From: Leisingera sp. S132
GTDB taxonomy: Bacteria; Pseudomonadota; Alphaproteobacteria; Rhodobacterales; Rhodobacteraceae
Length of the DNA: 64,000 nt
NCBI RefSeq assembly: GCF_025144465.1
Contig: NZ_CP083553.1
Location: forward strand, 144,501 to 208,500
Direction: 5' to 3'
The notes under the pieces are model-generated. The model searched no databases. It saw nothing but the letters and a program-made list of their open reading frames with translations, and had not been told where the DNA came from. Position numbers and translations under genes: made by a program. Each line of letters starts with the position of its first letter. Positions within the stretch are counted from its first letter, which is position 1. Positions 7,435 to 53,975 of the stretch are shown piece after piece.

Positions 7435-7460
7435 TCCGCCGCCTCAGGGGGAGGTGTTTC

Positions 7461-7481
7461 GCTTCGGGCTGTGCCCGAAGC
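7461..7481. terminator. hairpin between convergent genes
   Basis: Perfect 9-bp stem GCTTCGGGC / GCCCGAAGC with a 3-base loop, between the plus-strand hydratase-like gene and the minus-strand operon that ends at 7580. No T-run follows, so a terminator role rests on stem strength and position. Confidence 0.5.
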
Positions 7482-7485
7482 GACC

Positions 7486-7559
7486 CGCGCCGCGCCTTCG
7501 GCGCGGCGCTTGGCCCAACCAGAACGGATTCCGGCAGGAAGCCGGATAGGGGCGGGAGC
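7486..7559 (-). repeat. dispersed repeat R1, copy 1
   Basis: Read on the minus strand: CTCCCGCCC, a hairpin built on CCGGC/GCCGG, the linker GTTGGGC (complement at 7513-7519), then a GC hairpin with arms GCGCCGCGCC and GGCGCGGCGC. It shares the fixed linkers with six other copies in the window while both stems differ in sequence. It sits between convergent genes. Confidence 0.75.
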
Positions 7560-7579: not shown

Positions 7580-9622
7580 CTACCGCCGCCCCTCGCGCAG
7601 CCAGCCTGCAAGGATGAAGAAGGACGCCAGCAGCAGGGCCAGCCAGCCCGGCAGCAGCGGGCCTTGGCTGACCGAAAGCGTCTCATAGGCCTCCCGCGGG
7701 GTCAGGCCGATCCAGCCGCGCCCCGATGCGGGCCGCCCGGGCCGCACGCTGCGCAAGGACGGCATCCCGTCCTCCAGCCGCAAGACACCGCCGCGCAATG
7801 GCTCCAGCACCGGCGCCAGCACAGATCCTGTGGCAATGGTTTCCTCGAACTCCCGGGGCGACGCAGGCCCAAGCCCGACGACCGTGCTCTCCTCGCCTTC
7901 TTCCAGCCGGTACAGACCCGGCTCCGGCCCCTCATAGCGGGTTTCCCACTGGCCCGGCGCGGTTTGGCGCAGCTCCAGCGCCACGGCGGAGCCATCGGGC
8001 GCGGTCACCGTCACCGGCCCGACCCGGCCCGCCAGCGTGCGGCGCAGGATGCGCATCCGCTGGCCGCTCACCTCGGCCCACAGCGCCTCTTCCTCCAGCT
8101 CCGGCTCCTTCATCATCCAATGCGCAAGGCGGCGCAGCAGTTCCAGCTGCGGGCCGCCGCCCTCATAGCCGCGGCTCCACAGCCAGGCGTGATCCGATGC
8201 CAGCAAGGCCACCCGGCCCTCGCCCACCCGGTTCAGCACCAGCAAAGGCCGTTCGCCTGCGCCGCTCATCAGCACATGGCCCTCCGGCGCCAGCAGCTCG
8301 ATCTGGCGCAGCCAGCGGCCCCAGTCCGCCGCGCCCTCAAGGCCCGATGTGACAGGGTGCTGCTTGCCCAGACCGGTGACTTCCGGGCGGTAGGCCTCCT
8401 CCAGCACCCGGGCCGACGGTTCTGCCGGCAGGATCAGCGACAAGGGTGAGCGGTAGATGCTGTCGGCGCTGGCGAAATCGGGGCCGGCCGCCACCAGCAC
8501 CGCGCCGCCGTTCATCGCGTAGTTGGCGACATTGTCCAGATAGACGGCCGGCAGGATGCCGCGCCGCTTGTAGCGGTCAAAGATGATCAGGTCGAAATCC
8601 TCGATCTTTTCCAGGAACAGCTCGCGGGTCGGGAAGGCGATCAGCGACAGCTCCTCCACCGGCACCCCGTCCTGTTTCTCCGGCGGGCGCAGGATGGTGA
8701 AATGCACCAGATCCACCGCGCTGTCGGACTTCAGCAGATTGCGCCAGGTGCGCCCGCCCGCGTGCGGCTCGCCGGAAACCAGCAAGACCCGCAGCCGGTC
8801 GCGCACCCCGTTGATCTGCACCAGCGCGGCGTTGTTGCGCGCGGTCAGTTCGCCCGGCTCTTCCGGCACCGAGAATTGGATCACGTTGCGCCCGCCATGC
8901 TTCAGCACCATCGGCAGCTCGAAATCCACGCCCACGGGCAGGGCAAAGCGCTGCGGCGGCCCGCCCGCAACCGAGACATCTATGTCGGCAAAGCCGCCGC
9001 GCACCGGCACCGCGCCCTGATCCTCGATCCTGATCGTCAGCTTCACCGGCTCGCCGATGATGGCAAAGCCGGGGGCATTCTTCACGATCAGGCGCCGGTC
9101 CCAGTCATCCGCGCGCCCGGTCAGCAGCAGATGCATCGGTGCGGGCAGGTTCACCGGCTGCTCCGCGTCATGCACCTGGCCGTCACTCAGCGCGATGATC
9201 CCCGCCACCCGCGCCCGCGGCTCATCCGCCAGCGCCTGGGCGATGGCCGCCATCAGCCGCGTGCCCGCGTCGCCGTCGCCGTCCGGCACGGTGACCCAGC
9301 GCACATCGGTGCCGGGCCGGTCCGCCAGCGCCGCCTTCAGCTGGCTGCGCGCCCGCGCCAGCTGCTCCGGGCGGTCCCGCAGCTGCTGGCTGGCGGTCTG
9401 GTCCTCTGCCACGATGACGATGTCGCTCAGCGGTACGCGGTCCTCGCTCTGATGCACCGGGCCTGACAACGCAGCCAGCAGCACCAGCGCCGCCAGCGCC
9501 CGCAAGGCCCAGCCCGCGAGCCCCTTCCACACCCCAAGCAGCAGGGCGGCCAGAGTGACAGCCCCCGCGGCCCAGATCACCGGCCAGGGCACCAGCGGGT
9601 CGAACAGGATCGTCTGTGTCAT
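7580..9622 (-). CDS. membrane protein with glutamine-amidotransferase-like fold, MoxR-operon type
   Basis: Last gene of the MoxR-DUF58-DUF4159 operon. The frame can be extended upstream, but ATG 9622 (MTQTILFDPL) directly precedes two predicted membrane segments (about residues 10-55), as in related proteins. The central part (about residues 280-500) resembles a class I glutamine-amidotransferase-like Rossmann domain (RLRVLLVSGEP, DLIIFDRY, GGAVLVAAGP), with no obvious complete catalytic triad. A C-terminal membrane helix follows (about residues 650-675). It begins 10 bases after the DUF4159 gene stops. The likely role is a large membrane component working with the AAA+ ATPase MoxR, perhaps in envelope maturation or stress; function is not established. 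Confidence 0.85.
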   Translation of the reverse strand: MTQTILFDPLVPWPVIWAAGAVTLAALLLGVWKGLAGWALRALAALVLLAALSGPVHQSEDRVPLSDIVIVAEDQTASQQLRDRPEQLARARSQLKAALADRPGTDVRWVTVPDGDGDAGTRLMAAIAQALADEPRARVAGIIALSDGQVHDAEQPVNLPAPMHLLLTGRADDWDRRLIVKNAPGFAIIGEPVKLTIRIEDQGAVPVRGGFADIDVSVAGGPPQRFALPVGVDFELPMVLKHGGRNVIQFSVPEEPGELTARNNAALVQINGVRDRLRVLLVSGEPHAGGRTWRNLLKSDSAVDLVHFTILRPPEKQDGVPVEELSLIAFPTRELFLEKIEDFDLIIFDRYKRRGILPAVYLDNVANYAMNGGAVLVAAGPDFASADSIYRSPLSLILPAEPSARVLEEAYRPEVTGLGKQHPVTSGLEGAADWGRWLRQIELLAPEGHVLMSGAGERPLLVLNRVGEGRVALLASDHAWLWSRGYEGGGPQLELLRRLAHWMMKEPELEEEALWAEVSGQRMRILRRTLAGRVGPVTVTAPDGSAVALELRQTAPGQWETRYEGPEPGLYRLEEGEESTVVGLGPASPREFEETIATGSVLAPVLEPLRGGVLRLEDGMPSLRSVRPGRPASGRGWIGLTPREAYETLSVSQGPLLPGWLALLLASFFILAGWLREGRR

Positions 9623-16374: not shown

Positions 16375-16611
16375 ATGATCCCCGCCCGCTATGCCCCGCT
16401 TCTGTCCGGTTTCCTGATGTCGCTGATGATGTCCTCAATCGTATCCGGCATCTCGGCCTTGCGGGTTGCCGGCGCGGATCAGGGTTTTGCCGCCGCCTGG
16501 CTGGCCGCCTGGGCCTTCAGCTGGCCGGTGGCCTTCCCGGTTGTGCTGGTGGTGGCACCGCTGGTGCGCCGCATCGTGGCTATCGCCATCCGCCCGCCGG
16601 ATGCGGCATGA
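16375..16611 (+). CDS. DUF2798 small membrane protein (first of a tandem pair)
   Basis: 78-aa protein with two hydrophobic helices (about residues 8-32 and 42-68) and the DUF2798 pattern PARYAPLLSGFLMSLMMS, then a second helix rich in WPVAFPV, then LVRRIV. The ATG at 16375 follows GGAG. It is a paralogue of the next gene, of identical length and topology. Function unknown; inner-membrane location inferred. Confidence 0.85.
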   Translation: MIPARYAPLLSGFLMSLMMSSIVSGISALRVAGADQGFAAAWLAAWAFSWPVAFPVVLVVAPLVRRIVAIAIRPPDAA

Positions 16612-16701
16612 TGGCTCCGGCAGGCCGGAATACATATTCGTGAATTGAAATGTGTGATCCGCAACGGCATAAGCTGCCGTAACAGTAAAAGGACCCCGCC
16701 C

Positions 16702-16938
16702 ATGCTCCCCGCCCGTTTTGCCCCGGTTCTGTTCAGCCTGATCCTGTCTGGTCTGATGTCCTGCATCGTGACCTGTGTGGCGACCTGGAAGGCGCTGAGT
16801 TTCTCCGCAGGTTTCGGCGGGGCCTGGATGCAAGCCTGGATGGTCAGCTGGCCGATCGCCTTCGCCGTCGCCTTCACTGCCGCGCCCATGGTGCGCAGGC
16901 TGGTGGCGAAACTGGTCAAGCAGCCTGCGGGCAGCTGA
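16702..16938 (+). CDS. DUF2798 small membrane protein (second of a tandem pair)
   Basis: 78-aa paralogue of the gene ending at 16611, with matching architecture: PARFAPVLFSLILSGLMS, then WPIAFAV, then PMVRRLV. The start was set at ATG 16702 because alignment with the upstream copy begins exactly there and AAAGGA lies upstream; the frame extends to 16645 without homology. The pair probably arose by local duplication and may form a hetero-oligomer. It is followed by the R1-R2-R1 repeat block. Confidence 0.85.
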   Translation: MLPARFAPVLFSLILSGLMSCIVTCVATWKALSFSAGFGGAWMQAWMVSWPIAFAVAFTAAPMVRRLVAKLVKQPAGS

Positions 16939-16964
16939 AACCGGGCGGTCAAAGGGCAGGGGCT

Positions 16965-17033
16965 CTCCCGCCCGCTGCAAGCTGCATCAAAGATGCAGGA
17001 GCAGCCGTTGGGCGTGGCGCCGCTGGCGCGGCG
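16965..17033 (+). repeat. dispersed repeat R1, copy 2
   Basis: CTCCCGCCCGC (16965-16975), hairpin CTGCATC-aaa-GATGCAG (16982-16998), linker GTTGGGC (17007-17013), then a GC hairpin with arms GCGCCGC and GCGGCGC. It forms the left arm of an R1-R2-R1 composite between the convergent DUF2798 and polA genes. Confidence 0.75.
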
Positions 17034-17060
17034 CGGATTGTGCCGCACACTCGCCTCACC

Positions 17061-17161
17061 GGGTCAAGGGAGGCGCAGCCTCCGCGCGTCCCGCGCGGCT
17101 TGCCCTTGACGCGGCCGGCCCTGAAAACAATCGCAAACGCCCCTCAAGGGCAGACCTGCCC
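17061..17161 (-). repeat. dispersed repeat R2, copy 1
   Basis: About 101 bases, on the minus strand. It starts with palindromic GGGCAGGTCTGCCC, continues with a TTTGCGATTGT block, then TCAAGG...CCTTGACCC outer arms enclosing the stem CCGCGC/GCGCGG (17082-17098). The order matches the copies at 47755 and 52789. It is enclosed by two inverted R1 copies. Confidence 0.75.
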
Positions 17162-17189
17162 TTAGGGGCTTCTCAGCAAAAATCCTTTC

Positions 17190-17251
17190 GCGCCGCGCCA
17201 GCGGCGCCATGCCCAACGGGATGAGATCATCAGATCGAGGCCGGGCGGGAG
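17190..17251 (-). repeat. dispersed repeat R1, copy 3
   Basis: Inverted relative to copy 2. Minus-strand order is CTCCCGCCC (17243-17251), a weak GATC/GATGA-type stem, linker GTTGGGC (17211-17217) and a GC hairpin nearly identical to that of copy 2. It lies 28 bases from the polA stop. Confidence 0.75.
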
Positions 17252-17278
17252 TGCCCCGCCGGCTTCTCGGGTCGGCTC

Positions 17279-20086
17279 TTAGTGCGCTTCGGCCCAGTTC
17301 GAGCCGCGGCCTGCGTCCACCACCAGCTTCACGTCCAGATGCACAGCCGGATCGGCGGCGTTTTCCATTACCTGGCGCGCAGTCTCGATGGTCTCCTCCA
17401 CCGCCGCTTCCGGCACCTCAAACAGCAGTTCGTCGTGCACCTGCAGCAGCATCCGCGCAGGCAGATGAGCAATCGCCTCCGGCATCCGGATCATTGCCCG
17501 GCGGATCACGTCTGCTGCGGTGCCCTGGATCGGCGCATTGATCGCCGCGCGTTTGGCAAAACCCGCCTTCGGCCCCTTGGCGTTGATCTCCGCGGTGTGG
17601 ATCTTGCGCCCGAACAGGGTCTGGACGTAGCCATGCTCCTTGGCGAATTCCACCGTCGAGTCCATGTATTTGCGGATGCCTGGGAAGCGGTCGAAATAGC
17701 GGTCGATGAACCCCTGCGCATCCTTGCGCGGAATGCGCAGGTTCCGCGCCAGGCCAAAGCCCGAGATGCCGTAGATCACACCAAAGTTGATCGCCTTGGC
17801 CTGACGGCGGATTTCCGGCGTCATCTCCTCCAGCGGCACCTCGAACATCTCGGAGGCGGTCATCGCGTGAATATCAACCCCTTCCGCAAAAGCCTGTTTC
17901 AGCGCGTCAATACCCGCCATATGCGCCAGAATCCGCAACTCGATCTGGCTGTAGTCGAGCGACAGGAGCACATTGCCCTCTTCCGCCACAAACGCCTCGC
18001 GGATGCGGCGGCCTTCTTCGGTGCGCACCGGGATGTTCTGCAGGTTCGGATCGGTGGAGGCCATGCGCCCGGTGCTGGCCCCGGTCTGGGCATAGGATGT
18101 ATGCACCCGGCCTGTGTCGGGATTGATGTGGTCCTGCAGCGCGTCCGTATAGGTCGATTTCAGCTTCGACAGCTGGCGCCAGTCCAGCACCCGCCTAGCT
18201 AGATCGTGCTCGGTTGCCAGATCTTCCAGAATGTCGGCGCCGGTGGAGTATTTCCCGTTTTTACCGCGCTTGCCGCCTTCCAATCCCATCTTGTCGAACA
18301 GGATCTCGCCCAGCTGAGCAGGCGAGCCGACGTTGAATGTCTCCCCTGCCAGCTCGTGAATCTCCGCCTCCAGCCCTGCCATCTTCTGGGCAAAGGCGTT
18401 GGACATGCGCGAGAGCGTGTCGCGGTCCACCTTGATGCCGTTGCGCTCCATGTCCGCCAGTACCGGCACCAGCGGGCGTTCCAGCGTTTCATAGACCGTG
18501 GTCACGCGCTCCTGATGCAGCTGCGGTTTGAAAGTCTGCCACAGGCGCAGGGTGATGTCGGCGTCCTCCGCTGCATAAGGCACCGCATCCTCGATCGGCA
18601 CCCGGTCAAAGGTGATCGCCGATTTGCCAGAGCCCAACAGCGGCTTGATTGGGATCGGCGTGTGATCCAGATAGCGTTCGGACAGCGCGTCCATGCCATG
18701 CCCGTGCATGCCTGCATGCAGCGCATAGGACATCAGCATGGTGTCATCAATCGGCGCCACATCCACCCCGTAGCGGTGCAGGATCTTGGCGTCATATTTC
18801 ATGTTCTGGCCGATCTTGAGGATCGCCGGGTCTTCCAGAACCGGTTTCAGCATCGCCACCGCCTCTTCCAGCGGCATCTGCCCTTCGGACAGCCCTTCGC
18901 CGCCGAACAGATCATCACTCCCAGCCTTATGCGCCAAGGGGATGTAGCAGGCCTCGCCGGCCTCCACACACAGCGAGATGCCGACCAGATCCACCACCAT
19001 CTCATCCAGGCCGGTGGTCTCGGTATCTACCGCCACCCAGCCGCGCTCGCGGATGCGGCCGATCCAGGCCTGAAGCGCCGCGGCATCGCGGACGCATTCG
19101 TATTTTTCCTTGTCGAACGGCACCGCTTCCGGCGCCGCCGCACTGGACGCTGCCGCTGCGGCGGGGGCTTCCGGAATGGCCGGCGCCTCCATGCCCAGCT
19201 GATCCGCCATGCGTTTCGACAGCGTGCGGAACTCCATCTCAGACAGGAACGTTAGCAGGGTTTCCGCATCCGGCTCCTTCACCTCCAGATCGTCCAGGGT
19301 GAAATCCAGCTCCATATTGCAGTCCAGCTGCACCAGCTTCTTGCTGAGCTCGATCTGGTCCCGCTTCTCGATCAGGGTCTGGCGGCGCTTGGGCTGCTTG
19401 ATCTCCTCCGCCCGGTCCAAGAGCTCCTCCAGCGAGCCGAATTCGTTGATCAGCAGCGCCGCAGTCTTGATGCCGATGCCCGGCGCGCCCGGCACGTTGT
19501 CGACGCTGTCGCCGGCCAGCGCCTGCACATCCACCACCCGATCAGGACCAACGCCGAACTTCTCCACCACGCCGTCGCTATCGATGCGCTTGTTCTTCAT
19601 CGCGTCCAGCATCTCGACACCGCCGCCGACCAGCTGCATCAGGTCCTTGTCCGAGGAGATGATGGTCACCCGCCCGCCCGCATCACGGGCCTGATGTGCC
19701 AGCGTTGCGATGATGTCGTCGGCCTCGAAGCCCTCGATCTCCTTGCAGGCGATGTTGAAGGCGCGGGTCGCCTCACGGGTCAGCGGGAACTGCGGCACCA
19801 GATCCTCCGGCGCAGGCGGACGGTTGGCCTTGTACAAATCGTACATCTCATTGCGGAACGACTTGCCGGAATAGTCGAAAATCACCGCCACATGGGTCGG
19901 CGCATCCGGGCCCTTGTTGTCCTCCACCTGCTTGAACAGCATGTTGCAGAACCCCGCCACGGCTCCAATCGGCAGCCCATCGGACTTGCGCGTCAAGGGC
20001 GGCAGCGCGTGATAGGCGCGGAAGATGAAGGCCGAGCCGTCGATCAGATGCAGATGGCAGCCCTTGCCGAAGTGTGTTCCGCTCAT
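17279..20086 (-). CDS. polA: DNA polymerase I
   Basis: 935-aa DNA polymerase I used in Okazaki-fragment processing and excision repair. All three domains are present: 5' nuclease (about residues 1-290, starting LHLIDGSAFIFRAYHALPP), an intact 3'-5' exonuclease (about 330-510, with DTETTGLDEM carrying the Asp-Glu pair), and the polymerase (motif A DYSQIELRILAHMAGI, motif B region RRQAKAINFGVIYG, motif C HDELLFEVP). Length is typical. It is transcribed alone on the minus strand, 220 bases after the flavodoxin-like gene, and ends against the R1-R2-R1 repeat block. Confidence 0.98.
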   Translation of the reverse strand: MSGTHFGKGCHLHLIDGSAFIFRAYHALPPLTRKSDGLPIGAVAGFCNMLFKQVEDNKGPDAPTHVAVIFDYSGKSFRNEMYDLYKANRPPAPEDLVPQFPLTREATRAFNIACKEIEGFEADDIIATLAHQARDAGGRVTIISSDKDLMQLVGGGVEMLDAMKNKRIDSDGVVEKFGVGPDRVVDVQALAGDSVDNVPGAPGIGIKTAALLINEFGSLEELLDRAEEIKQPKRRQTLIEKRDQIELSKKLVQLDCNMELDFTLDDLEVKEPDAETLLTFLSEMEFRTLSKRMADQLGMEAPAIPEAPAAAAASSAAAPEAVPFDKEKYECVRDAAALQAWIGRIRERGWVAVDTETTGLDEMVVDLVGISLCVEAGEACYIPLAHKAGSDDLFGGEGLSEGQMPLEEAVAMLKPVLEDPAILKIGQNMKYDAKILHRYGVDVAPIDDTMLMSYALHAGMHGHGMDALSERYLDHTPIPIKPLLGSGKSAITFDRVPIEDAVPYAAEDADITLRLWQTFKPQLHQERVTTVYETLERPLVPVLADMERNGIKVDRDTLSRMSNAFAQKMAGLEAEIHELAGETFNVGSPAQLGEILFDKMGLEGGKRGKNGKYSTGADILEDLATEHDLARRVLDWRQLSKLKSTYTDALQDHINPDTGRVHTSYAQTGASTGRMASTDPNLQNIPVRTEEGRRIREAFVAEEGNVLLSLDYSQIELRILAHMAGIDALKQAFAEGVDIHAMTASEMFEVPLEEMTPEIRRQAKAINFGVIYGISGFGLARNLRIPRKDAQGFIDRYFDRFPGIRKYMDSTVEFAKEHGYVQTLFGRKIHTAEINAKGPKAGFAKRAAINAPIQGTAADVIRRAMIRMPEAIAHLPARMLLQVHDELLFEVPEAAVEETIETARQVMENAADPAVHLDVKLVVDAGRGSNWAEAH

Positions 20087-24034: not shown

Positions 24035-24499
24035 TCACCCCCGGTCGATCCGCGCCTGATAGCAGTTGTTGCGCGACGACCGGATGTGGATGTAGTCCAC
24101 CCGTTCATCGGCAAAAATCGCCTCCGCCCGTGCCATCATCTCCGCCTGCGGAATGACAATGCCGGTGCCGTAAACGATGCGGTGCCCGGTGCTGTAGCCC
24201 TTGATCAGATAGTCCGGCGCGTTCTCCAGCACCTCCGGCACCTCTGTCCCTTCATGGCGTTCGCAAGGGTCCGCGCACAGGAATATGGGTCCGGTCTCGG
24301 CATAGGGCTGCGCCTCGGGGAAGGGGCGGTGGGCGAGGATCAGCATCTCCTGGCCTTCGGGGATGTATTGCAGGCAGTGGCGGCAGGGGTTGCCGCCGCC
24401 GTCCGACACCGTGCGCTCCGGCATCTGGCCATGGGCGTCGGGACCGCCATTCTGCAGGGCGCGGACGGTGTCAGTGGGCAGGGCGGTGATCTTGGTCAT
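24035..24499 (-). CDS. DUF1203 domain-containing protein
   Basis: 154-aa soluble protein with DUF1203 features: CRHCLQYIPEGQEMLILAHR near residue 40, PYAETGPIFLC, and a C-terminal YIHIRSSRNNCYQARID. Conserved Cys and His suggest a metal- or ligand-binding role, but none is established. ATG 24499 has a GGAGAAA ribosome site; the frame extends 68 codons upstream without conservation. It diverges from dnaE2. Confidence 0.85.
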   Translation of the reverse strand: MTKITALPTDTVRALQNGGPDAHGQMPERTVSDGGGNPCRHCLQYIPEGQEMLILAHRPFPEAQPYAETGPIFLCADPCERHEGTEVPEVLENAPDYLIKGYSTGHRIVYGTGIVIPQAEMMARAEAIFADERVDYIHIRSSRNNCYQARIDRG

Positions 24500-24604
24500 G
24501 GGGTTTCTCCTTTGCTGCCAGCACCCTGCCCGAACCATGCGGCGGCAATCGACCCGGATCCTGCGCATCCCGCAGCCGGGCCATGCGGCGCCTGAAGCAA
24601 GGCT

Positions 24605-24678
24605 CTCCCGCCCGCCGTGCAGGCATTGAAATGCCCTGCGGCGGTTGGGCGCGGCGCCGCGCTGGCGCGCGGCGCGGC
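24605..24678 (+). repeat. dispersed repeat R1, copy 4
   Basis: CTCCCGCCCGC (24605-24615), hairpin GCAGGCATT / AATGCCcTGC (24619-24640, one bulge), linker GTTGGGC (24644-24650), then a GC hairpin with arms GCGCCGCGC and GCGCGGCGC. It lies in the divergent DUF1203-dnaE2 promoter region, unlike several copies between convergent genes. Confidence 0.75.
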
Positions 24679-24705
24679 ACCGCAGTCCAGCAGGACTCCA
24701 CATGA

Positions 24706-24720
24706 GAACAAAACGGGAAT
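24706..24720 (+). promoter_or_regulatory. LexA-type box before dnaE2, one mismatch
   Basis: GAAC AAAACGG GAAT matches the GAAC-N7-GAAC alphaproteobacterial SOS box except for the last base. It ends 3 bases before ATG 24724, overlapping the ribosome-binding region, where bound LexA would block transcription or early elongation. dnaE2 is a classic LexA target, which supports the call. Confidence 0.6.
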
Positions 24721-24723
24721 ATC

Positions 24724-27660
24724 ATGTGGATCATGTTTGCCGAATTCGCCTGTCTCTCGAACTTCACCTTCCTCACCGGGGCCTCCCACCCGGAGGAGTA
24801 TGCGGCGCGCGCGCTGACGCTGGGCTTGGGTGCCTTTGCCATTGCGGACGAAAACTCGGTGGCGGGCATCGTGCGCGCCCATGCGGAGTGCCGCGATATC
24901 GCCCGCCGGGTGGCAGAGCGGCAGGCCTGGGACCGGCAGAACACCCCGATCGGCCCGCCGCGGCCCGCGGGTATTGCGCAGCCCGCCTCCTTCCCGGTTT
25001 ATGAAACCGTGCGGCTGATCCCGGCCGCAAAGCTGATCTTCACCGATGCGCCGGACGTCATTGCCCTGCCGGTGACCCGCGCGGGCTGGGGCAGCCTGAC
25101 CCGGCTGCTCTCAACCGGGCGGCTCAGGGCGGAAAAGGGCAGCTGCACCCTGCATCTCTCGGACCTCCTGGACTTTGCGGAGGGCCTGCACCTGCTCCTG
25201 CTGCCGCAGGCGCAGCATCTGCCCGGCGGCGCGGATGGATGGGTGCCGCATATGGATGGGCTGACGCGCCGCTTTGGCTCCCGCATGCACCTGATGATGG
25301 CGCCTGCTTATGACGGCGGCGACCGGGCGCGCTTTGCCCGGCTGGCGGACCTCGCCGCCCGTCTGAACCTGCTGCCCCTGGCCAGCGCCGCCCCCAGAAT
25401 GCACCACGGCAGCCGCCGCCGCCTGGGCGACGTGCTGAGTGCCATCCGGCTGCGCTGCAAGGTGGAGGAGCTGGGCCGCGCCGCCATGGCCAACGCGGAG
25501 CAGCGCCTGCGGTCAGAGGCCGAGATGCGCCGCCTGTTCCGGGGGCATGAGGCCGCGGTGGACAATGCCGCCCTTCTGGCAGCGCAGCTGACCTTCTCGC
25601 TGGATGAGCTGCGTTATGATTACCCGGACGAGGGCCGCGAAAGCGAAACCCCGCCCCAGCGCCTGCGGCGGCTGGCGGAGGAGGGGCTCCGCTGGCGCTA
25701 CCCGGGCGGCGCGCCGGACAAGGTGCGCGGCCTGCTGGAGCATGAACTCGCCCTGATCGCCAAGCTGAAATACGACCCCTATTTCCTCACCGTGCGCGAC
25801 ATCGTCGCCTTTGCCCGCTCCCGCGGGATCCTCTGCCAGGGGCGCGGCTCGGCGGCGAATTCGGTGGTCTGCTACTGTCTGGGCGTCACCTCCGTCAGCC
25901 CGGAACTGGGCACCATGGTGTTCGAGCGTTTCGTCTCCGAGGCCCGCGACGAGCCGCCCGACATCGACGTCGATTTCGAACACGAGCGGCGCGAGGAGGT
26001 GATCCAGTGGATCTATGAACGCTACGGCCGTGAGCGCGCAGGGCTCTGCGCCACGGTGATCCACTACCGCGGCAAACGCGCCATCCGCGAGGTGGGCCGC
26101 GCCATGGGACTGACCGAGGATACCATCTCTGCCATGTCCTCGCAGCTCTGGGGGTTCTTCAGCAGCAAGGGGGTAGAGGCCGAGCGGATGCGCGAGATCG
26201 GGCTGGACCCCGCGAGCCGCCGCCTGCAGCTGACCCTGCAGCTGGTGGAGCAGATCATCGGCTTCCCGCGCCACCTCAGCCAGCATGTGGGCGGCTTCAT
26301 CATCACCCAGGGGCGCTTGGACGAACTGGTGCCCATTGAAAACGCCACCATGGAGGGGCGCACGGTCATCTGCTGGGACAAGGACGACATCGACACGCTG
26401 GGCATCCTCAAGGTCGATGTGCTGTCGCTGGGCATGCTCACTTGCATCCGCAAGGCGTTTGATCTGATGCGCCAGCACCACCAGCTGGACTACAGCCTGG
26501 CCACCCTGCCGCCCGAGGACCCGGCGGTCTACAACATGCTGTGCCGCGCCGACAGCATCGGGGTGTTTCAGGTCGAAAGCCGGGCGCAGATGAACTTTCT
26601 GCCCCGGATGCGGCCGCGCCATTTCTATGATCTGGTGATCGAGGTCGCCATCGTCCGCCCCGGCCCGATCCAGGGCGACATGGTGCACCCCTATATCCGC
26701 CGCAGGAACAAGGAGGAGCCGGTGCATTTCCCATCGGATGCGCTGGGCGAGGTCTTGGGCAAGACCCTCGGCGTGCCGCTGTTTCAGGAGCAGGCGATGC
26801 AGATCGCCATCGTCGGCGCCGGCTTCACCCCGGAGCAGGCCGACCGGCTGCGGCGGTCTTTGGCGACCTTCAAGAAGCATGGCAATGTCAGCGAATTCCG
26901 CAGCCTGTTCCTGCGCGGCATGGCCAGGAACGGCTATGATCAGGAGTTCTCCGAACGCTGCTTTTCCCAGATCGAGGGCTTCGGCTCCTACGGGTTTCCG
27001 GAAAGCCATGCGGCGAGTTTCGCGCTGCTGGTCTATGCCTCGGCCTGGATCAAGTGCCACCATCCGGGCATCTTTGCCTGCGCGCTGCTGAACTCCCAGC
27101 CGATGGGATTTTACGCGCCCGCACAGATCGTCCGCGACGCCCGCGAGCACGGAGTCGATGTGCGCCCGGTCTGCATCAACAACTCCTACTGGGACAACGT
27201 GATGGAGCCGGACGGCCACGGCGGGCTGGCGCTGCGGCTGGGGTTCCGGCAGGTGAAGGGCCTGCGCGATGAGGACGCCGCTTGGCTCACGGCCGCCCGT
27301 GGCAACGGCTACCATGAGGTCGAGGACATCTGGCGCAAGGCCGGTATCGCGCCGCCGGTGATCGAGCGGCTGGCCGAGGCGGATGCCTTTGCCGCCCTTG
27401 GCCTGAACCGGCGCGAGGCCTTGTGGGCCGCCAAGGCGATCACCGCCCGCAAACCGCTGCCGCTGTTTGCCCGCGAGCTGGAGGGCGAGGGGATCTATGA
27501 GCCGGACGCCGACCTGCCGAAGATGGGCTTGGGCGAGGAGGTGGTGGAGGATTATGTCGCTATGCGCCTGTCCCTGCGGGCGCATCCGGTAGCGCTGATC
27601 CGGCATTTGCTGACGCCGCAGGACAGGGGCGGCGGCGCGCAGGGCGGGCCGGGCGATTGA
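24724..27660 (+). CDS. dnaE2: error-prone DNA polymerase DnaE2 (ImuC), short C-terminus
   Basis: Damage-inducible C-family polymerase that performs translesion synthesis with ImuB. The N-terminal PHP domain begins AEFACLSNFTFLTGASHPEEY. The polymerase acidic triad is Asp413, Asp415 and Asp417 in PPDIDVDFEHERR, and the region GSAANSVVCYCLGVTSVSP is typical. At 978 aa it is shorter than usual for the family (about 1050 or more). It ends just after the conserved LSLRAHPVAL segment, where the C-terminal OB-fold domain normally begins; that domain is not found in any frame downstream. Start ATG 24724, with an alternative at 24733. A LexA-like box precedes it. Neither imuA nor imuB is adjacent; imuB is at 55345. 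Confidence 0.93.
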   Translation: MWIMFAEFACLSNFTFLTGASHPEEYAARALTLGLGAFAIADENSVAGIVRAHAECRDIARRVAERQAWDRQNTPIGPPRPAGIAQPASFPVYETVRLIPAAKLIFTDAPDVIALPVTRAGWGSLTRLLSTGRLRAEKGSCTLHLSDLLDFAEGLHLLLLPQAQHLPGGADGWVPHMDGLTRRFGSRMHLMMAPAYDGGDRARFARLADLAARLNLLPLASAAPRMHHGSRRRLGDVLSAIRLRCKVEELGRAAMANAEQRLRSEAEMRRLFRGHEAAVDNAALLAAQLTFSLDELRYDYPDEGRESETPPQRLRRLAEEGLRWRYPGGAPDKVRGLLEHELALIAKLKYDPYFLTVRDIVAFARSRGILCQGRGSAANSVVCYCLGVTSVSPELGTMVFERFVSEARDEPPDIDVDFEHERREEVIQWIYERYGRERAGLCATVIHYRGKRAIREVGRAMGLTEDTISAMSSQLWGFFSSKGVEAERMREIGLDPASRRLQLTLQLVEQIIGFPRHLSQHVGGFIITQGRLDELVPIENATMEGRTVICWDKDDIDTLGILKVDVLSLGMLTCIRKAFDLMRQHHQLDYSLATLPPEDPAVYNMLCRADSIGVFQVESRAQMNFLPRMRPRHFYDLVIEVAIVRPGPIQGDMVHPYIRRRNKEEPVHFPSDALGEVLGKTLGVPLFQEQAMQIAIVGAGFTPEQADRLRRSLATFKKHGNVSEFRSLFLRGMARNGYDQEFSERCFSQIEGFGSYGFPESHAASFALLVYASAWIKCHHPGIFACALLNSQPMGFYAPAQIVRDAREHGVDVRPVCINNSYWDNVMEPDGHGGLALRLGFRQVKGLRDEDAAWLTAARGNGYHEVEDIWRKAGIAPPVIERLAEADAFAALGLNRREALWAAKAITARKPLPLFARELEGEGIYEPDADLPKMGLGEEVVEDYVAMRLSLRAHPVALIRHLLTPQDRGGGAQGGPGD

Positions 27661-39811: not shown

Positions 39812-39870
39812 CTCCCGCCCGGCTTCGACCTGCCGGTCTCACCCCGCCCAGCCCGGCGCCGCTGGCGCGG
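39812..39870 (+). repeat. dispersed repeat R1, copy 5 (degenerate)
   Basis: CTCCCGCCC at 39812-39820 and the GC hairpin GGCGCCGCTGGCGCGG (39855-39870) match R1, but the GTTGGGC linker is replaced by CCGCCCAGCCC and the first stem is weak. It lies between convergent folC and the bestrophin gene, directly followed by an inverted GAGTATTT motif. Confidence 0.5.
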
Positions 39871-39875
39871 CTATT

Positions 39876-39897
39876 CTTCATCTTTCTGCAAATACTC
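39876..39897 (-). repeat. short dispersed motif GAGTATTT...AAAGATGAAG, copy 2
   Basis: Minus-strand copy of the motif at 27659, matching 19 of 22 positions. Here it is abutted by R1 copy 5. Confidence 0.5.
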
Positions 39898-39921
39898 CGG
39901 GGGGGAGGCCGTAAGGCCGAG

Positions 39922-39940
39922 GGGGCAGCGCCCCTTTTTT
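39922..39940 (+). terminator. rho-independent terminator after folC
   Basis: GGGGC-AGC-GCCCC followed by six T (39935-39940). It faces folC and lies just before the convergent bestrophin stop. Confidence 0.8.
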
Positions 39941-51344: not shown

Positions 51345-51686
51345 ATGAGCGATTTTCTGAGACTGACACCGGAGGCCGCGGAGGCGGAGGTGGAGCGCCC
51401 GGCAGCGGAGAAGGTGCTGGCAGGCGATCCGGTCTTCACCACCTGGAACGCCGAGGAACGCGACGGGCTGTACTGCGGCATCTGGCAGTCGACACCGGGC
51501 AAGTGGCGGATTTCCTATGACGAGTGGGAATACTGCCGGATCCTGCAGGGGCGCTCGGTGATCACCAGCGACGACGGCACTGAATACCCGCTGGCGGCGG
51601 GCGACAGCTTTATCCTGCGGCCGGGTTTCAGCGGCACCTGGGAGGTGATCGAAACCACCCGCAAGGATTACGTGATCCGGCTTTAA
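51345..51686 (+). CDS. cupin domain-containing protein
   Basis: 113-aa cupin resembling the DUF861/ureidoglycine-type single domain (GIWQSTPGKWRISYDEWEYC, then GDSFILRPGFSGTWEV). ATG 51345 follows GGAGG. Its stop codon overlaps that of the convergent AEC permease gene. The ligand is unknown. Confidence 0.88.
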   Translation: MSDFLRLTPEAAEAEVERPAAEKVLAGDPVFTTWNAEERDGLYCGIWQSTPGKWRISYDEWEYCRILQGRSVITSDDGTEYPLAAGDSFILRPGFSGTWEVIETTRKDYVIRL

Positions 51687-52612
51687 GGGCCGGAGACCCA
51701 GGCGATCACCGCCGGCACGGTGACGATCGACAGAATGGTGGAGATGAAGATGGCGGCTGAGGCCCGGTGCGGGGCCACGCCATAGTGCTGCGCCAGCATA
51801 TAGACATTGCCCGCCACCGGCAGCGATGCAGCAGCGATGGCAACGGCGGCTGAGAACGGCGCCGCCGGGATCAGCCACAGCACCGCGAGGGCGACACAGG
51901 CCGGGTGCAGCACCAGCTTGGCAAAGCTGAGCCAGCCTGCGACCTGCACCCGTTCCGCCGATTTCGAGGCGAGCGAGGCGCCAATGGCAAACAGCGCGCC
52001 GGGCGTTGCGGCGCCGCCGAGGATGGTGAGGAAATCGTTTGCCGGGCCCGGGATCGGCAGGGCGGAGGCCGACCAGGCAAGGCCCGCGACAATGGACAGG
52101 ATCATCGGGTTTTTCATGAGGCCCAGACCGACCAGTTTCAGGGTCGCCGGACCAAGCCCCTGGCCGCGGCCCGCGTTGATCAGGATCACGATCAGCGAGG
52201 AGAACACCACCAGATCAACGCTCAGCACCACCATCATCGGCGCCACCGAGGCCGGGCCGAACAGGATCGCCATCATCGGCAGGCCCAGAAAACCCACATT
52301 GCCGATTGCCGCGCATTGCGCCTCAACCGCTGCGGTGGGCACGTCCAGGCCGCGGGCCATGGCGACGGCTGTCACCAGCAAATAGACCGCGAGGGTGCCC
52401 GCCAGATAGCCAAGGATCAGAGTGGGGTCGAAGACCTCGGCAAAGGTGAGGTTGGCGGCAAAGCCGAAGATCATCGCCGACAGCGGGAAGTAGAACACAA
52501 AACGGGTGAGATAGGCGGTGGCGTCCTCGGTGAAGAAGCGGCTGCGCCCGGCCCAGTAGCCAAGGCCGATGATTGCGAAGAAGGGCAGGGTGCGGAAGAA
52601 GATCTCAGCCAT
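51683..52612 (-). CDS. AEC family transporter
   Basis: 309-aa auxin-efflux-carrier type permease with ten predicted helices, arranged as two inverted five-helix halves. Typical segments are FAIIGLGYWAGR at the N-terminus, the discontinuous-helix region AAIGNVGFLGLPMM, and ASLPVAGNVYMLAQHYG. Bacterial members export malate, malonate or related acids. ATG 52612 has a poor ribosome site; the TTG at 52645 is the only longer start. Confidence 0.9.
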   Translation of the reverse strand: MAEIFFRTLPFFAIIGLGYWAGRSRFFTEDATAYLTRFVFYFPLSAMIFGFAANLTFAEVFDPTLILGYLAGTLAVYLLVTAVAMARGLDVPTAAVEAQCAAIGNVGFLGLPMMAILFGPASVAPMMVVLSVDLVVFSSLIVILINAGRGQGLGPATLKLVGLGLMKNPMILSIVAGLAWSASALPIPGPANDFLTILGGAATPGALFAIGASLASKSAERVQVAGWLSFAKLVLHPACVALAVLWLIPAAPFSAAVAIAAASLPVAGNVYMLAQHYGVAPHRASAAIFISTILSIVTVPAVIAWVSGP

Positions 52613-52685: not shown

Positions 52686-52757
52686 CTCCCGCCTGCTCAT
52701 GGGCAGTCCAGAGACTGCCCTTCACAGTTGGGCGCGGCCCTGTGCTGCGCACAGGGC
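52686..52757 (+). repeat. dispersed repeat R1, copy 6
   Basis: CTCCCGCCTGC (52686-52696), hairpin GGGCAGTC-caga-GACTGCCC (52701-52720), linker GTTGGGC (52727-52733), hairpin CCCTGTGC-tgc-GCACAGGG (52738-52757). Both stems are completely unlike those of copies 2 and 4 yet perfectly paired. Left arm of the second R1-R2-R1 composite. Confidence 0.8.
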
Positions 52758-52788
52758 TGGGAGGGGTCACTGCTGAGACGCGTTCTAT

Positions 52789-52890
52789 GGGCAGGTGTGC
52801 CCTAAGAGCGCTTGGCCGATTGTGATATCGTTCAAGGCATCCTCAAGGGTAAACCGCGCTGGCGCGCGGCGGCTGTGCCGCCCTTGACCC
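52789..52890 (+). repeat. dispersed repeat R2, copy 3
   Basis: About 102 bases: GGGCAGGTGTGCCC, then GCGCTTGGCCGATTGTG, then TCAAGG...CCTTGACCC enclosing CCGCGC-tggc-GCGCGG (52854-52869). It is enclosed by inverted R1 copies 6 and 7. Confidence 0.8.
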
Positions 52891-52915
52891 TGCCTTGGCC
52901 AAGCGGAGCAACCCG

Positions 52916-52983
52916 CAGCGCGTCAGCGCTGCAGGGCCCAACCGGGGAGGGGCAGCCTTTGGCTGCTCCGGCGCGGGCGGGAG
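52916..52983 (-). repeat. dispersed repeat R1, copy 7
   Basis: Minus-strand order: CTCCCGCCC (52975-52983), hairpin from GGAGCAGCC / GGCTGCCCC (52950-52970), linker GTTGGGC (52936-52942), hairpin GCAGCGC / GCGCTGC (52916-52932). Right arm of the second composite, 18 bases from the mbfA stop. Confidence 0.8.
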
Positions 52984-53000: not shown

Positions 53001-53975
53001 TCAGCCGCTGCCGATCAGCATGCCGGCACCCAGCACCAGCGCGCCGCCCAGCACCACCTGCATGGTGGCGCGCCAGAAAGGGGTTTCCATGAATTTGTTC
53101 TGGATCCAGGCGATCGCCCAGAGCTCCACAAACACGATCAGCAGCGCCAGCGTGGTGGCGGTCCAGAATTCCGGGATCAGATAGGGCAGGGCGTGGCCAA
53201 GGCCGCCCACGGTGGTCATGATGCCGGAGGCGAGGCCGCGTTTCAGAGGTGAGCCGCGGCCGGACAGCTGGCCGTCGTCGGAGGCGGCTTCGGTGAAGCC
53301 CATCGAGATGCCCGCCCCGACCGAGGCCGCCATGCCGACCAGGAAGGTGGTCCAGGTGTCCTGGGTGGCAAAGGCGGTGGCAAAGATCGGCGCCAGGGTG
53401 GAGACCGAGCCGTCCATCAGCCCGGCCAGCCCCGGCTGCACCCAGGTCAGCACGAACTGGCGGTGGGCGGCGCGGTCCTCGTCTGCGCGGGTGCCGGAGT
53501 CCAGGTGCGCCTCCTGCAGCTCACCGGCGCGGGCCTGGTGGCCAGCCTCGGCAGCGGCCAGATCACCCAGCAATTTACGGGTGGCGGCATCCTGGGTGCG
53601 GGCGGCGGCGGAAGTGTAGAAACGCTCGGCGTCGCGTTCCATCGCGCGGGCCTCGTCGCGGATGCGGTCGAGGCTCAGGTTCTCCATCAGCCAGATGGGG
53701 CGGCGGGCATAGTAGCCTGCCACATGCTCACGCCGGATCAGCGGGATCGCCGGGCCGAACCGCGCCTCGTGCAGGGCAATGAGCTGGGCGCGGTGCCCGT
53801 CCTCCTCTGCCGCCATGCCGTCGAACATCGCGGCAGAGGCCGGGTATTCGGCGCGCAGCCGTTCGCCATAGCCGCGGTAGATGCGCGCATCGTCCTCCTC
53901 GGAGGAGATCGCAAGGGCGAGGACTTCCTGTTCCGATAGCTCCGCAAAATGCTTGCGCTGAGTGAAAAAACGCAT
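53001..53975 (-). CDS. mbfA: membrane-bound ferritin MbfA (ferritin-like + VIT1/CCC1 domain)
   Basis: 324-aa fusion. The N-terminal 150 residues are a ferritin/rubrerythrin-like four-helix domain with di-iron Glu/His residues (ISSEEDDARIY, AAEEDGHRAQLI, AAEAGHQARAGE). The C-terminal part is a VIT1/CCC1-type iron/manganese membrane domain (QPGLAGLMDGSVSTLAPIFA, then GMAASVGAGISMGFTEAASD). This architecture is MbfA, an iron exporter or detoxifier in rhizobia, repressed by Irr. A perfect ICE box 15 bases upstream of the start confirms the assignment and predicts repression when iron is scarce. Confidence 0.95.
   Translation of the reverse strand: MRFFTQRKHFAELSEQEVLALAISSEEDDARIYRGYGERLRAEYPASAAMFDGMAAEEDGHRAQLIALHEARFGPAIPLIRREHVAGYYARRPIWLMENLSLDRIRDEARAMERDAERFYTSAAARTQDAATRKLLGDLAAAEAGHQARAGELQEAHLDSGTRADEDRAAHRQFVLTWVQPGLAGLMDGSVSTLAPIFATAFATQDTWTTFLVGMAASVGAGISMGFTEAASDDGQLSGRGSPLKRGLASGIMTTVGGLGHALPYLIPEFWTATTLALLIVFVELWAIAWIQNKFMETPFWRATMQVVLGGALVLGAGMLIGSG

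Follow-up and report, generated by a model that had tools for sequence, protein, structure and literature searches.

The genome of Leisingera sp. S132 carries a family of about 120 half-elements, each of which is one folded unit and most of which lie behind a stop codon. The stems of these units vary from copy to copy yet stay paired, and it is thus the shape of the element that is under selection. The two linkers that recur in every unit are not spacers between hairpins; they pair with each other around a fixed mismatch and form the base of the fold.

Half-elements in the window and in the genome

The window is the whole 64,000-nt stretch of DNA that was analysed, which corresponds to bases 144501-208500 of contig 1 in a 4.69 Mb assembly of seven contigs. 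A preliminary description of the window had claimed seven copies of a repeat with fixed linkers, and we could read the element at all seven places (7/7). Both linkers are exactly as then written at five of the seven; those at 52686 and 39812 deviate. The sites are as follows.

16965..17013, plus strand (as CTCCC strand): type A half-element core (CTCCCGCCC - hairpin 1 - GTTGGGC)
17189..17251, minus strand: inverted partner half, core 17211-17251, hairpin 2 about 17189-17210
7486..7558, minus strand: single half, core 7513-7558, hairpin 2 about 7486-7512
24605..24680, plus strand: single half, core 24605-24650, then hairpin 2
39812..39873, plus strand: half with a decayed right linker (CGCCCAG), behind folC
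52686..52757, plus strand: half, core 52686-52733, plus hairpin 2
52916..52983, minus strand: half, core 52936-52983, then hairpin 2; found in 18 of 21 genomes

The 16965 half, for which the folding strand is the minus strand and hairpin 2 lies at about 17014-17035, sits 26 nt past a weakly predicted plus-strand stop, and its inverted partner at 17211 belongs to the half that lies 27 nt past the stop of the DNA polymerase I gene (17279-20086, minus strand). The hairpins 2 of this pair are 97% complementary over 31 nt; the hairpins 1 are unlike each other. At the other double site, the 52686 half is inverted relative to 52936, lies 73 nt before the start of the gene at 51683-52612 (minus strand), and has the left linker CTCCCGCCT, in which T is the ninth base; the 52916 half is 17 nt past the stop of an mbfA-type iron exporter gene (53001-53975, minus strand). 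The 7486 half is found 21 nt past the stop of the gene at 7580-9622 (minus strand). The 24605 half is located between divergent genes, upstream of the error-prone DNA polymerase gene at 24724; the gene on the other side, at 24035, encodes a protein without an NCBIfam match. The right-linker decay at 39812 belongs to this genome alone among the 19 of 21 genomes that have the element there: TTGGGC is kept in 18 of the 20 relatives, one of which has a single left-linker change, and the element is missing in the remaining two.

Several other repeats lie near these sites. A second repeated hairpin, GGGTCAAGGG..GGC.CAGCC..CGCG..CCCTTGAC, recognised by eye at 17061-17111 and about 52848-52895, occupies the space that separates the two inverted halves at each double site. 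The inverted repeat TTTGCTGAGAAGC..CCTTAAGGGCAGGTCTGCCCTTAAGG, a third kind, occurs in the window at about 17140-17187 and 52774-52800; several copies (L003, L007, L029, L059 and L075) have it past their hairpin 2. A further repeat that looks terminator-bearing, TTTCATCTTTC..CAAATACTCCGGGGG..GGGGGCAGCGCCCC followed by T's, is present at about 39870-39935 and also at L247-L259, and has been copied along with the element in Seohaeicola. Between the divergent genes, the blocks ATCGACCCGGATC.TGCGCATCC and GACTCCACAT.AGAACAAAACGGGAATATCATG flank the element at 24500-24723 and are conserved in nine genomes; the second block may be an SOS-type operator of the error-prone polymerase gene. Beyond hairpin 2 at 7486, a further palindrome, GGTCGCTTCGGGCACAGCCCGAAGCGA (about 7440-7486), is conserved in most of six genomes.

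The search of the genome yielded many further copies. The first-type pattern CTCCCGCC-N20-50-TTGGGC matches 39+43 places genome-wide, versus 2+2 for the reversed pattern, and a second type, CTCCCGCG-N20-50-CTTGGGC, matches 21+15 places versus 1+1 for its reversed-pattern control; a narrower second-type pattern matches only 3. A covariance model, of the kind that the preliminary description had proposed, returned 82 hits at E<=0.1 (150 scored of 5940 candidates). Nine of these hits are outside the first pattern and are not second-type halves; eight of the nine have one changed linker base, and the other has no recognisable left linker. Few further copies, or stems that lose their pairing, would have spoken against the family; copies are many and pairing is kept. 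The first-type (type A) set used below contains 79 copies, which are the 82 pattern rows minus one nested row and minus C1:2091254 and C1:2547749, both chance-like by eye. The type B set has 36 rows, two of which are inside predicted genes; C1:3251799 and C1:3904222 were left out. Type B halves are the inverted partner of many first-type copies. Contig 1 holds 115 of the 118 pattern rows and 3 are outside it, though 16% of the assembly is in contigs C2-C7; possibly the element avoids plasmids.

Anatomy, covariation and the folding strand

The unit is a half-element that reads CTCCCGC-N-hairpin 1-N'-TTGGGC, followed by RYGGC and then by the GC-rich hairpin 2. On the folding strand the order is 5'-hairpin 2 (GC-rich)-RYC-GCCCAA-N-hairpin 1-N'-GCGGGAG-3'. 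The linkers pair in one fixed register, in which CCC:GGG is followed by a conserved 2x2 mismatch (G6 opposite T-5 and C7 opposite T-6 on the CTCCC strand) and then by covarying pairs. Because the CCC:GGG register holds around a fixed two-base mismatch, the linkers make up the opposite sides of a single basal stem; the conserved order of fixed linkers between hairpins that had been described earlier is real, and the idea that they are mere spacers is not. On the folding strand the mismatch places AA opposite GC as a conserved 2x2 internal loop, past which the pairs either covary freely or are purine-purine mismatches (G.G and tandem G.A). Tandem G.A mismatches occur in 18 of 79 copies, a recurrence that could be explained by shared descent within one genome. 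Position 8/-7 is C:G in type A (76/79) and mostly G:C in type B (19/24). The best stem of hairpin 2 has 11 mismatches in 752 pairs across the 79 copies. The bases ahead of CTCCC are purine-rich, T accounting for 2-6 of 79 at positions -9 to -3. In 33 of the 79 copies GCCCAA comes within the next 120 nt, and many of these run on as an inverted half; in the tightest inverted pairs both halves use a common hairpin 2. The 7486 ortholog in G004 (L213) has an unrelated hairpin in place of hairpin 2 and retains GCCCAAC-hairpin 1, so the two hairpins are able to evolve separately.

Mutual information among the 79 copies, aligned by both ends, is strongest at 9/-8, followed by 10/-9, 21/-19, 12/-11, 13/-12 and 11/-10, and the linker-adjacent pairs all belong to one common register. 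For the nine outer pairs of 63 paralogs, the covariation score is 0.211 versus 0.072 (sd 0.011) for shuffles, none of 500 of which scored as high, and it is at most 0.082 in slid registers. The same register recurs in 112 cores from eight other genera, where pair 10/-9 is Watson-Crick in 103 cores (shuffle mean 50.3) and pair 13/-12 in 90 (shuffle mean 31.4), with 0/2000 shuffles as high in either case; these cores were taken from 120 listed in eight genomes after duplicates, near-duplicates and chance-like cores were omitted, and the shuffles do not correct for kinship within a genome. Compensatory changes also appear at orthologous sites. Among the 24605 orthologs of nine genomes, pair 9/-8 alternates between C:G and A:T and is C.C in one; at 39812 one pair is C:G in 11 and U:A in 8 genomes; and at 52936 there is one both-sides change. 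RNAalifold, applied to the 7486 orthologs, found the basal stem and the 2x2 loop unaided, together with seven pairs with both-sides changes, three of which are in hairpin 2 and come from the one genome with the unrelated hairpin. Covariation is weaker in these single-locus sets than among paralogs: the score at 39812 is 0.060 versus 0.034 for shuffled alignments, but it is 0.059 in the register slid by one. The claim that selection acts on structure is thus borne out by covariation above that of shuffles and slid registers and by compensatory changes at orthologous sites, and it is backed further by constraint exceeding that of fourfold sites, for linkers and hairpin 2 at all three loci followed and for the hairpin-1 arms at two of three.

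Which strand folds was read from mismatches. For each copy we took the best apical hairpin under Watson-Crick scoring only and counted its internal mismatches. On the CTCCC strand, A.C outnumbers G.T by 23:4 in the 79 copies of this genome (p=3e-4; shuffles 30:31), by 18:2 in 47 cores of G014 plus Seohaeicola, and by 38:7 in the 112 cores of eight further genera (p=3e-6). The 47 cores are 32 of 39 listed for G014 and 15 of 45 listed for Seohaeicola, near-identical and long ones having been omitted; G014 is of the same genus, and part of its cores are orthologous to the 79-copy set. Since an A.C mismatch reads as G.T on the opposite strand, the complement of the CTCCC strand is the strand with the whole stem, on which G.U is tolerated and A.C hardly is. 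These counts overturn the alternative that the CTCCC strand folds as RNA. On the complement, the conserved mismatches are A.C, A.G, G.G and tandem G.A, which have the look of an RNA-like internal loop. For the core folded by itself, the predicted probability of the CCC:GGG stem exceeds 0.5 on the folding strand in 73 of 79 copies, compared with about half of them on the CTCCC strand; with hairpin 2 added, the basal stem exceeds 0.5 in 22/79 and about 7/79, respectively. The strand bias is confined to the apical stem, as mismatches over the whole arms are unbiased (61 G.T to 52 A.C; 32 to 35). Moreover, 11 of the 23 A.C mismatches concern pair six, counted from the loop, and a single structural position may thus account for some of the strand signal. 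Folding energy also favours the complement, in 72 of 79 copies for the core and in 54 of 79 for the part inside the linkers; we set this comparison aside because the latter share is no different from the shuffled 69%. We note that the tolerance of G.U, and the strand signal with it, also fits folded single-stranded DNA equally well.

Folded single-stranded DNA brings to mind the attC sites of integrons, whose stems are free in sequence, which lie behind the cassette gene and in which the complement strand is the folded one. A relative of attC, recombined as a folded bottom strand by a tyrosine recombinase, would account for the right end of type A, where GTTGGGC fits GTTRRRY and its complement fits RYYYAAC, with orientation and folding strand in agreement; structure conserved above sequence and placement behind genes are likewise shared. 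The left end, TCCCGCC, has no AAC triplet, and the right end of type B is CTTGGGC, so that the G by the attC cleavage point is unconserved and is one side of a covarying pair. The element also differs from attC in its second hairpin and its dispersed sites. No integron integrase exceeds the cut-off in any of the 45 genomes searched (TIGR02249, 0/45), and weaker matches are found in every one of the 45, as they are in each of the 14 control genomes. In favour of such a relative, a structured DNA motif, OTH-22-1, is reported to have RYYYAAC at its 5' end without overlapping known attC sites (PMC8632094). On the left box, the unconserved G and the lack of an integrase over the cut-off we reject attC itself as largely refuted, and we hold a relationship to it to be very unlikely.

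No known RNA family accounts for the element either: Rfam gave no match for the window at gathering scores and none for 9 loci at E up to 1. Our literature search, which left supplements and most subscription papers outside its reach, found no description of this layout. Both outcomes are compatible with the earlier statement that no named element is built in this way.

Inheritance and spread

Within Leisingera, the window sites that we followed are inherited vertically. The element is present in 18, 19 and 19 of 21 genomes at 52936, 7486 and 39812, as counted with a pattern that permits previously observed linker changes; the pattern failed at 7 of 63 ortholog places, which are left out of the count, among them 7486 in G005, where left linker and stem are kept and the right linker is gone. 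At 52936 three genomes have lost the element through an apparent deletion that extends from the stop codon to within hairpin 2. The window sites recur at the same places in syntenic stretches of five further genomes of the group and in 22 kb loci from named relatives, and no extra element sites were seen in the mappable spaces of the relatives. Some halves are lost or changed, for example the polA-side half in G010 and CECT 8399. JAHVJD010000003.1 (L081) is titled Nocardioides marinus but is of Leisingera type, with 92% identity in DNA polymerase I, and is mislabelled or contaminated.

The linkers and hairpin 2 are under purifying selection. In 56 orthologs, 7 of 728 linker bases are changed (99% identical), and four of the seven changes are those of this genome at 39812. 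For orthologs with intact linkers (16-17 genomes per locus, three loci), identity is 0.85-0.94 in hairpin 2 versus about 0.71 at fourfold sites; it is 0.84, 0.81 and, at 7486, 0.56 in the hairpin-1 arms, 0.48-0.74 in the 12 bases ahead of the element, and 0.32, 0.42 and, at 7486, 0.87 in the 20 bases past hairpin 2. At 7486, therefore, the hairpin-1 arms are more variable than fourfold sites, and the 20 nt past hairpin 2 are as conserved as the element. The stems that had been called hypervariable but paired are indeed variable between loci and genera, with hairpin 1 covarying; among orthologs of the genus, two of the three loci followed have conserved hairpin-1 arms, and there the term does not hold.

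The variable arms at 7486 are what one would expect if the copies were functionless fixed remnants in which palindromes keep their pairing by converting their own arms through template switching, and the same reading would explain why stems at the same site are wholly different between genera while the linkers are unchanged. Yet the linkers, including their unpaired mismatched bases, are the most conserved part of the element, and self-correction would erase the conserved mismatches and would not yield the A.C/G.T asymmetry between strands; we regard this explanation as highly improbable. A mobility mechanism that rewrites palindromes, as first suggested, is not needed within the genus, where stems drift with compensation; the stems that differ wholly at the same site between genera are the observation that speaks for it.

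All 20 other genomes of the genus contain the element (44-128 places each, controls 4-13). In a family survey of 248 genomes from 247 genera, at least 10 copies were found in 23 genomes of 22 genera, and 165 genomes had none; counts outside the family were low and not clearly above control. Behind polA, several near genera have the element with other stems or as type B, and the site is unoccupied in Seohaeicola, EL53, G027, G035, G051 and G057, though these have 13-63 copies each. As the polA site is empty in those genomes, we claim site conservation just for Leisingera and some near genera. Of the 25 halves read in Seohaeicola saemankumensis (G025), 16 are nearly identical; their left edge, at CTCCC, is sharp, and their right part mostly takes in a second, terminator-like repeat. 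These 16 halves point to recent copying there, and the Leisingera sites that we followed are old. The best reading is that the family spread by copying in the past.

Copying of this kind raises the possibility of a REP-like mobile palindrome, in which folded single-stranded DNA would be the substrate of a transposase acting in trans, copies at the rear of genes would be the least harmful, and some would have been co-opted. The sharp-edged copies in Seohaeicola and the patchy distribution, with at least 10 copies in just 23 of 248 family genomes, are in line with it. REP and BIME elements are likewise short, many-copy intergenic palindromes with G.T pairs in their stems, single or in inverted pairs, in convergent and unidirectional spaces (PMC3733652); our element is dispersed, intergenic and often in inverted pairs, mostly between convergent genes, as described there for REPs, and CGTC-type REPs are there also without a known transposase. 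The ends of the element, however, carry neither a GTAG nor a CGTC tag: the 63 aligned cores, which were chosen by these ends, start with GCCCAAC and end with GGCGGGAG on the folding strand, and the nine model hits with changed linkers have no such tag either. CGTC does occur at positions 9-12, within the basal stem, in 18 of 79 copies. RAYT genes (Y1_Tnp, PF01797), the transposases of GTAG-type REPs, number 0 in this genome by profile check, so that the REP-associated transposase whose presence had been suggested as a check is absent here; it is present in 6 of the 21 genomes of the group, all 21 of which carry the element, and the 15 that lack the domain include one with 57 copies. We therefore reject membership in a RAYT-driven REP family. 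The pairing of the two linkers around a fixed 2x2 mismatch, the locus-specific stems and the vertical inheritance with compensation also set the element apart from REP/BIME. A REP-like origin without RAYT seems unlikely to us, given that the window sites are orthologous across the genus with no extra site in the mappable spaces of relatives, and that dead copies would not be expected to undergo compensatory changes where they stand.

Position behind genes and proposed role

Gene positions were called by a codon-score gene finder trained on the window, without annotation. None of the 79 first-type copies is inside a predicted gene, and 60 of 78 are behind a same-strand stop, at a median distance of 22.5 nt. 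Counting copies in a common space singly, 46 of 78 are between convergent genes and 2 of 78 between divergent genes, against a baseline, taken over spaces of 80 nt or more, in which 17-19% are convergent and 32-38% divergent; one of the two copies between divergent genes is conserved in nine genomes. In 62 of 79 copies (classes +>- and ->-) transcription of the adjacent gene towards hairpin 2 runs on the folding strand. Between codirectional genes, single copies are found in either orientation, 8 in +>+ versus 5 in ->-, so orientation is no proof that the folding strand is transcribed.

A U-tract intrinsic terminator is not the rule. Only 7 of 79 copies have a T-rich tract (at least 5 T in 8) after hairpin 2, and only 5 of 79 have a U-tract after GCGGGAG on the folding strand; no U-tract terminator was found at 16500-17700 (shuffles 0.9). 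Bidirectional intrinsic terminators, among them the uptake-signal terminators of Neisseria and Pasteurellaceae, resemble the element in their close complementary conserved words and in hairpins behind genes (PMC1852404). They differ from it in that only few of our copies have a U-tract, in number (1,000 or more versus about 120), and in that the conserved words of our element do not make up the strong hairpin and its variable stem covaries. Candidate structured RNAs of 3' UTRs, such as the downstream element of L17, are also structures behind genes, and for L17 it was G-U pairs that served to argue the strand (PMC2864571); the L17 motif belongs to one gene, and the present element is dispersed behind unrelated genes.

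We infer, tentatively and just short of what we would call probable, that the half-element is a structured transcript-end element that acts in RNA and ends or trims transcripts between neighbours. A transcript leaving the gene on the hairpin-2 side would fold hairpin 2 and then hairpin 1 just before it reaches the neighbouring gene, and the element would end such transcripts, or define them by trimming, which would keep convergent and tandem neighbours apart. A protein, or RNA polymerase, could dock at the invariant internal loop (AA/GC). In the eight single codirectional copies in which the folding strand is antisense to both genes, the element might be a boundary against antisense transcription; because codirectional copies occur in both orientations, our hypothesis covers these only by this added role. 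In other bacteria, clustered hairpins that lack a U-tract are reported to serve as termination units (PMC8355165).

The same observations allow for a different role in RNA, in which the element is a 3' UTR binding site for one RNA-binding protein, as a hub of stability or localisation, or the source of a 3' UTR-derived small RNA. An invariant purine internal loop amid free helices is the usual look of a protein-recognised RNA, and the position behind stop codons and the strand-specific fold would fit as well. In 60 of 78 copies, however, it is the non-folding orientation that lies on the strand of the nearest upstream gene, and we consider such a site distinctly unlikely.

A bolder version of the transcript-end reading, which we think doubtful, is that these half-elements constitute a new and widespread class of Rhodobacteraceae boundary elements, with a strand-specific fold and an invariant purine internal loop to which a dedicated factor would bind, that block transcription into genes from behind. 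If this is true, the element divides the genome into transcription units. To the best of our knowledge, it is unusual for a repeat family that reaches a hundred copies in a genome to covary strongly. Descriptions of extragenic palindromes mostly treat them as families of sequences, and structured RNAs mostly go with one gene each; this element unites both, being a repeat family with the covariation of a structured RNA. With about 120 natural variants of one shape in this genome, and 22 genera with at least 10 copies, its shape, loop and strand are testable by simple reporters. If the element forms transcript ends, it would help to explain U-tract-free termination and the separation of convergent genes in high-GC bacteria of the Roseobacter type.
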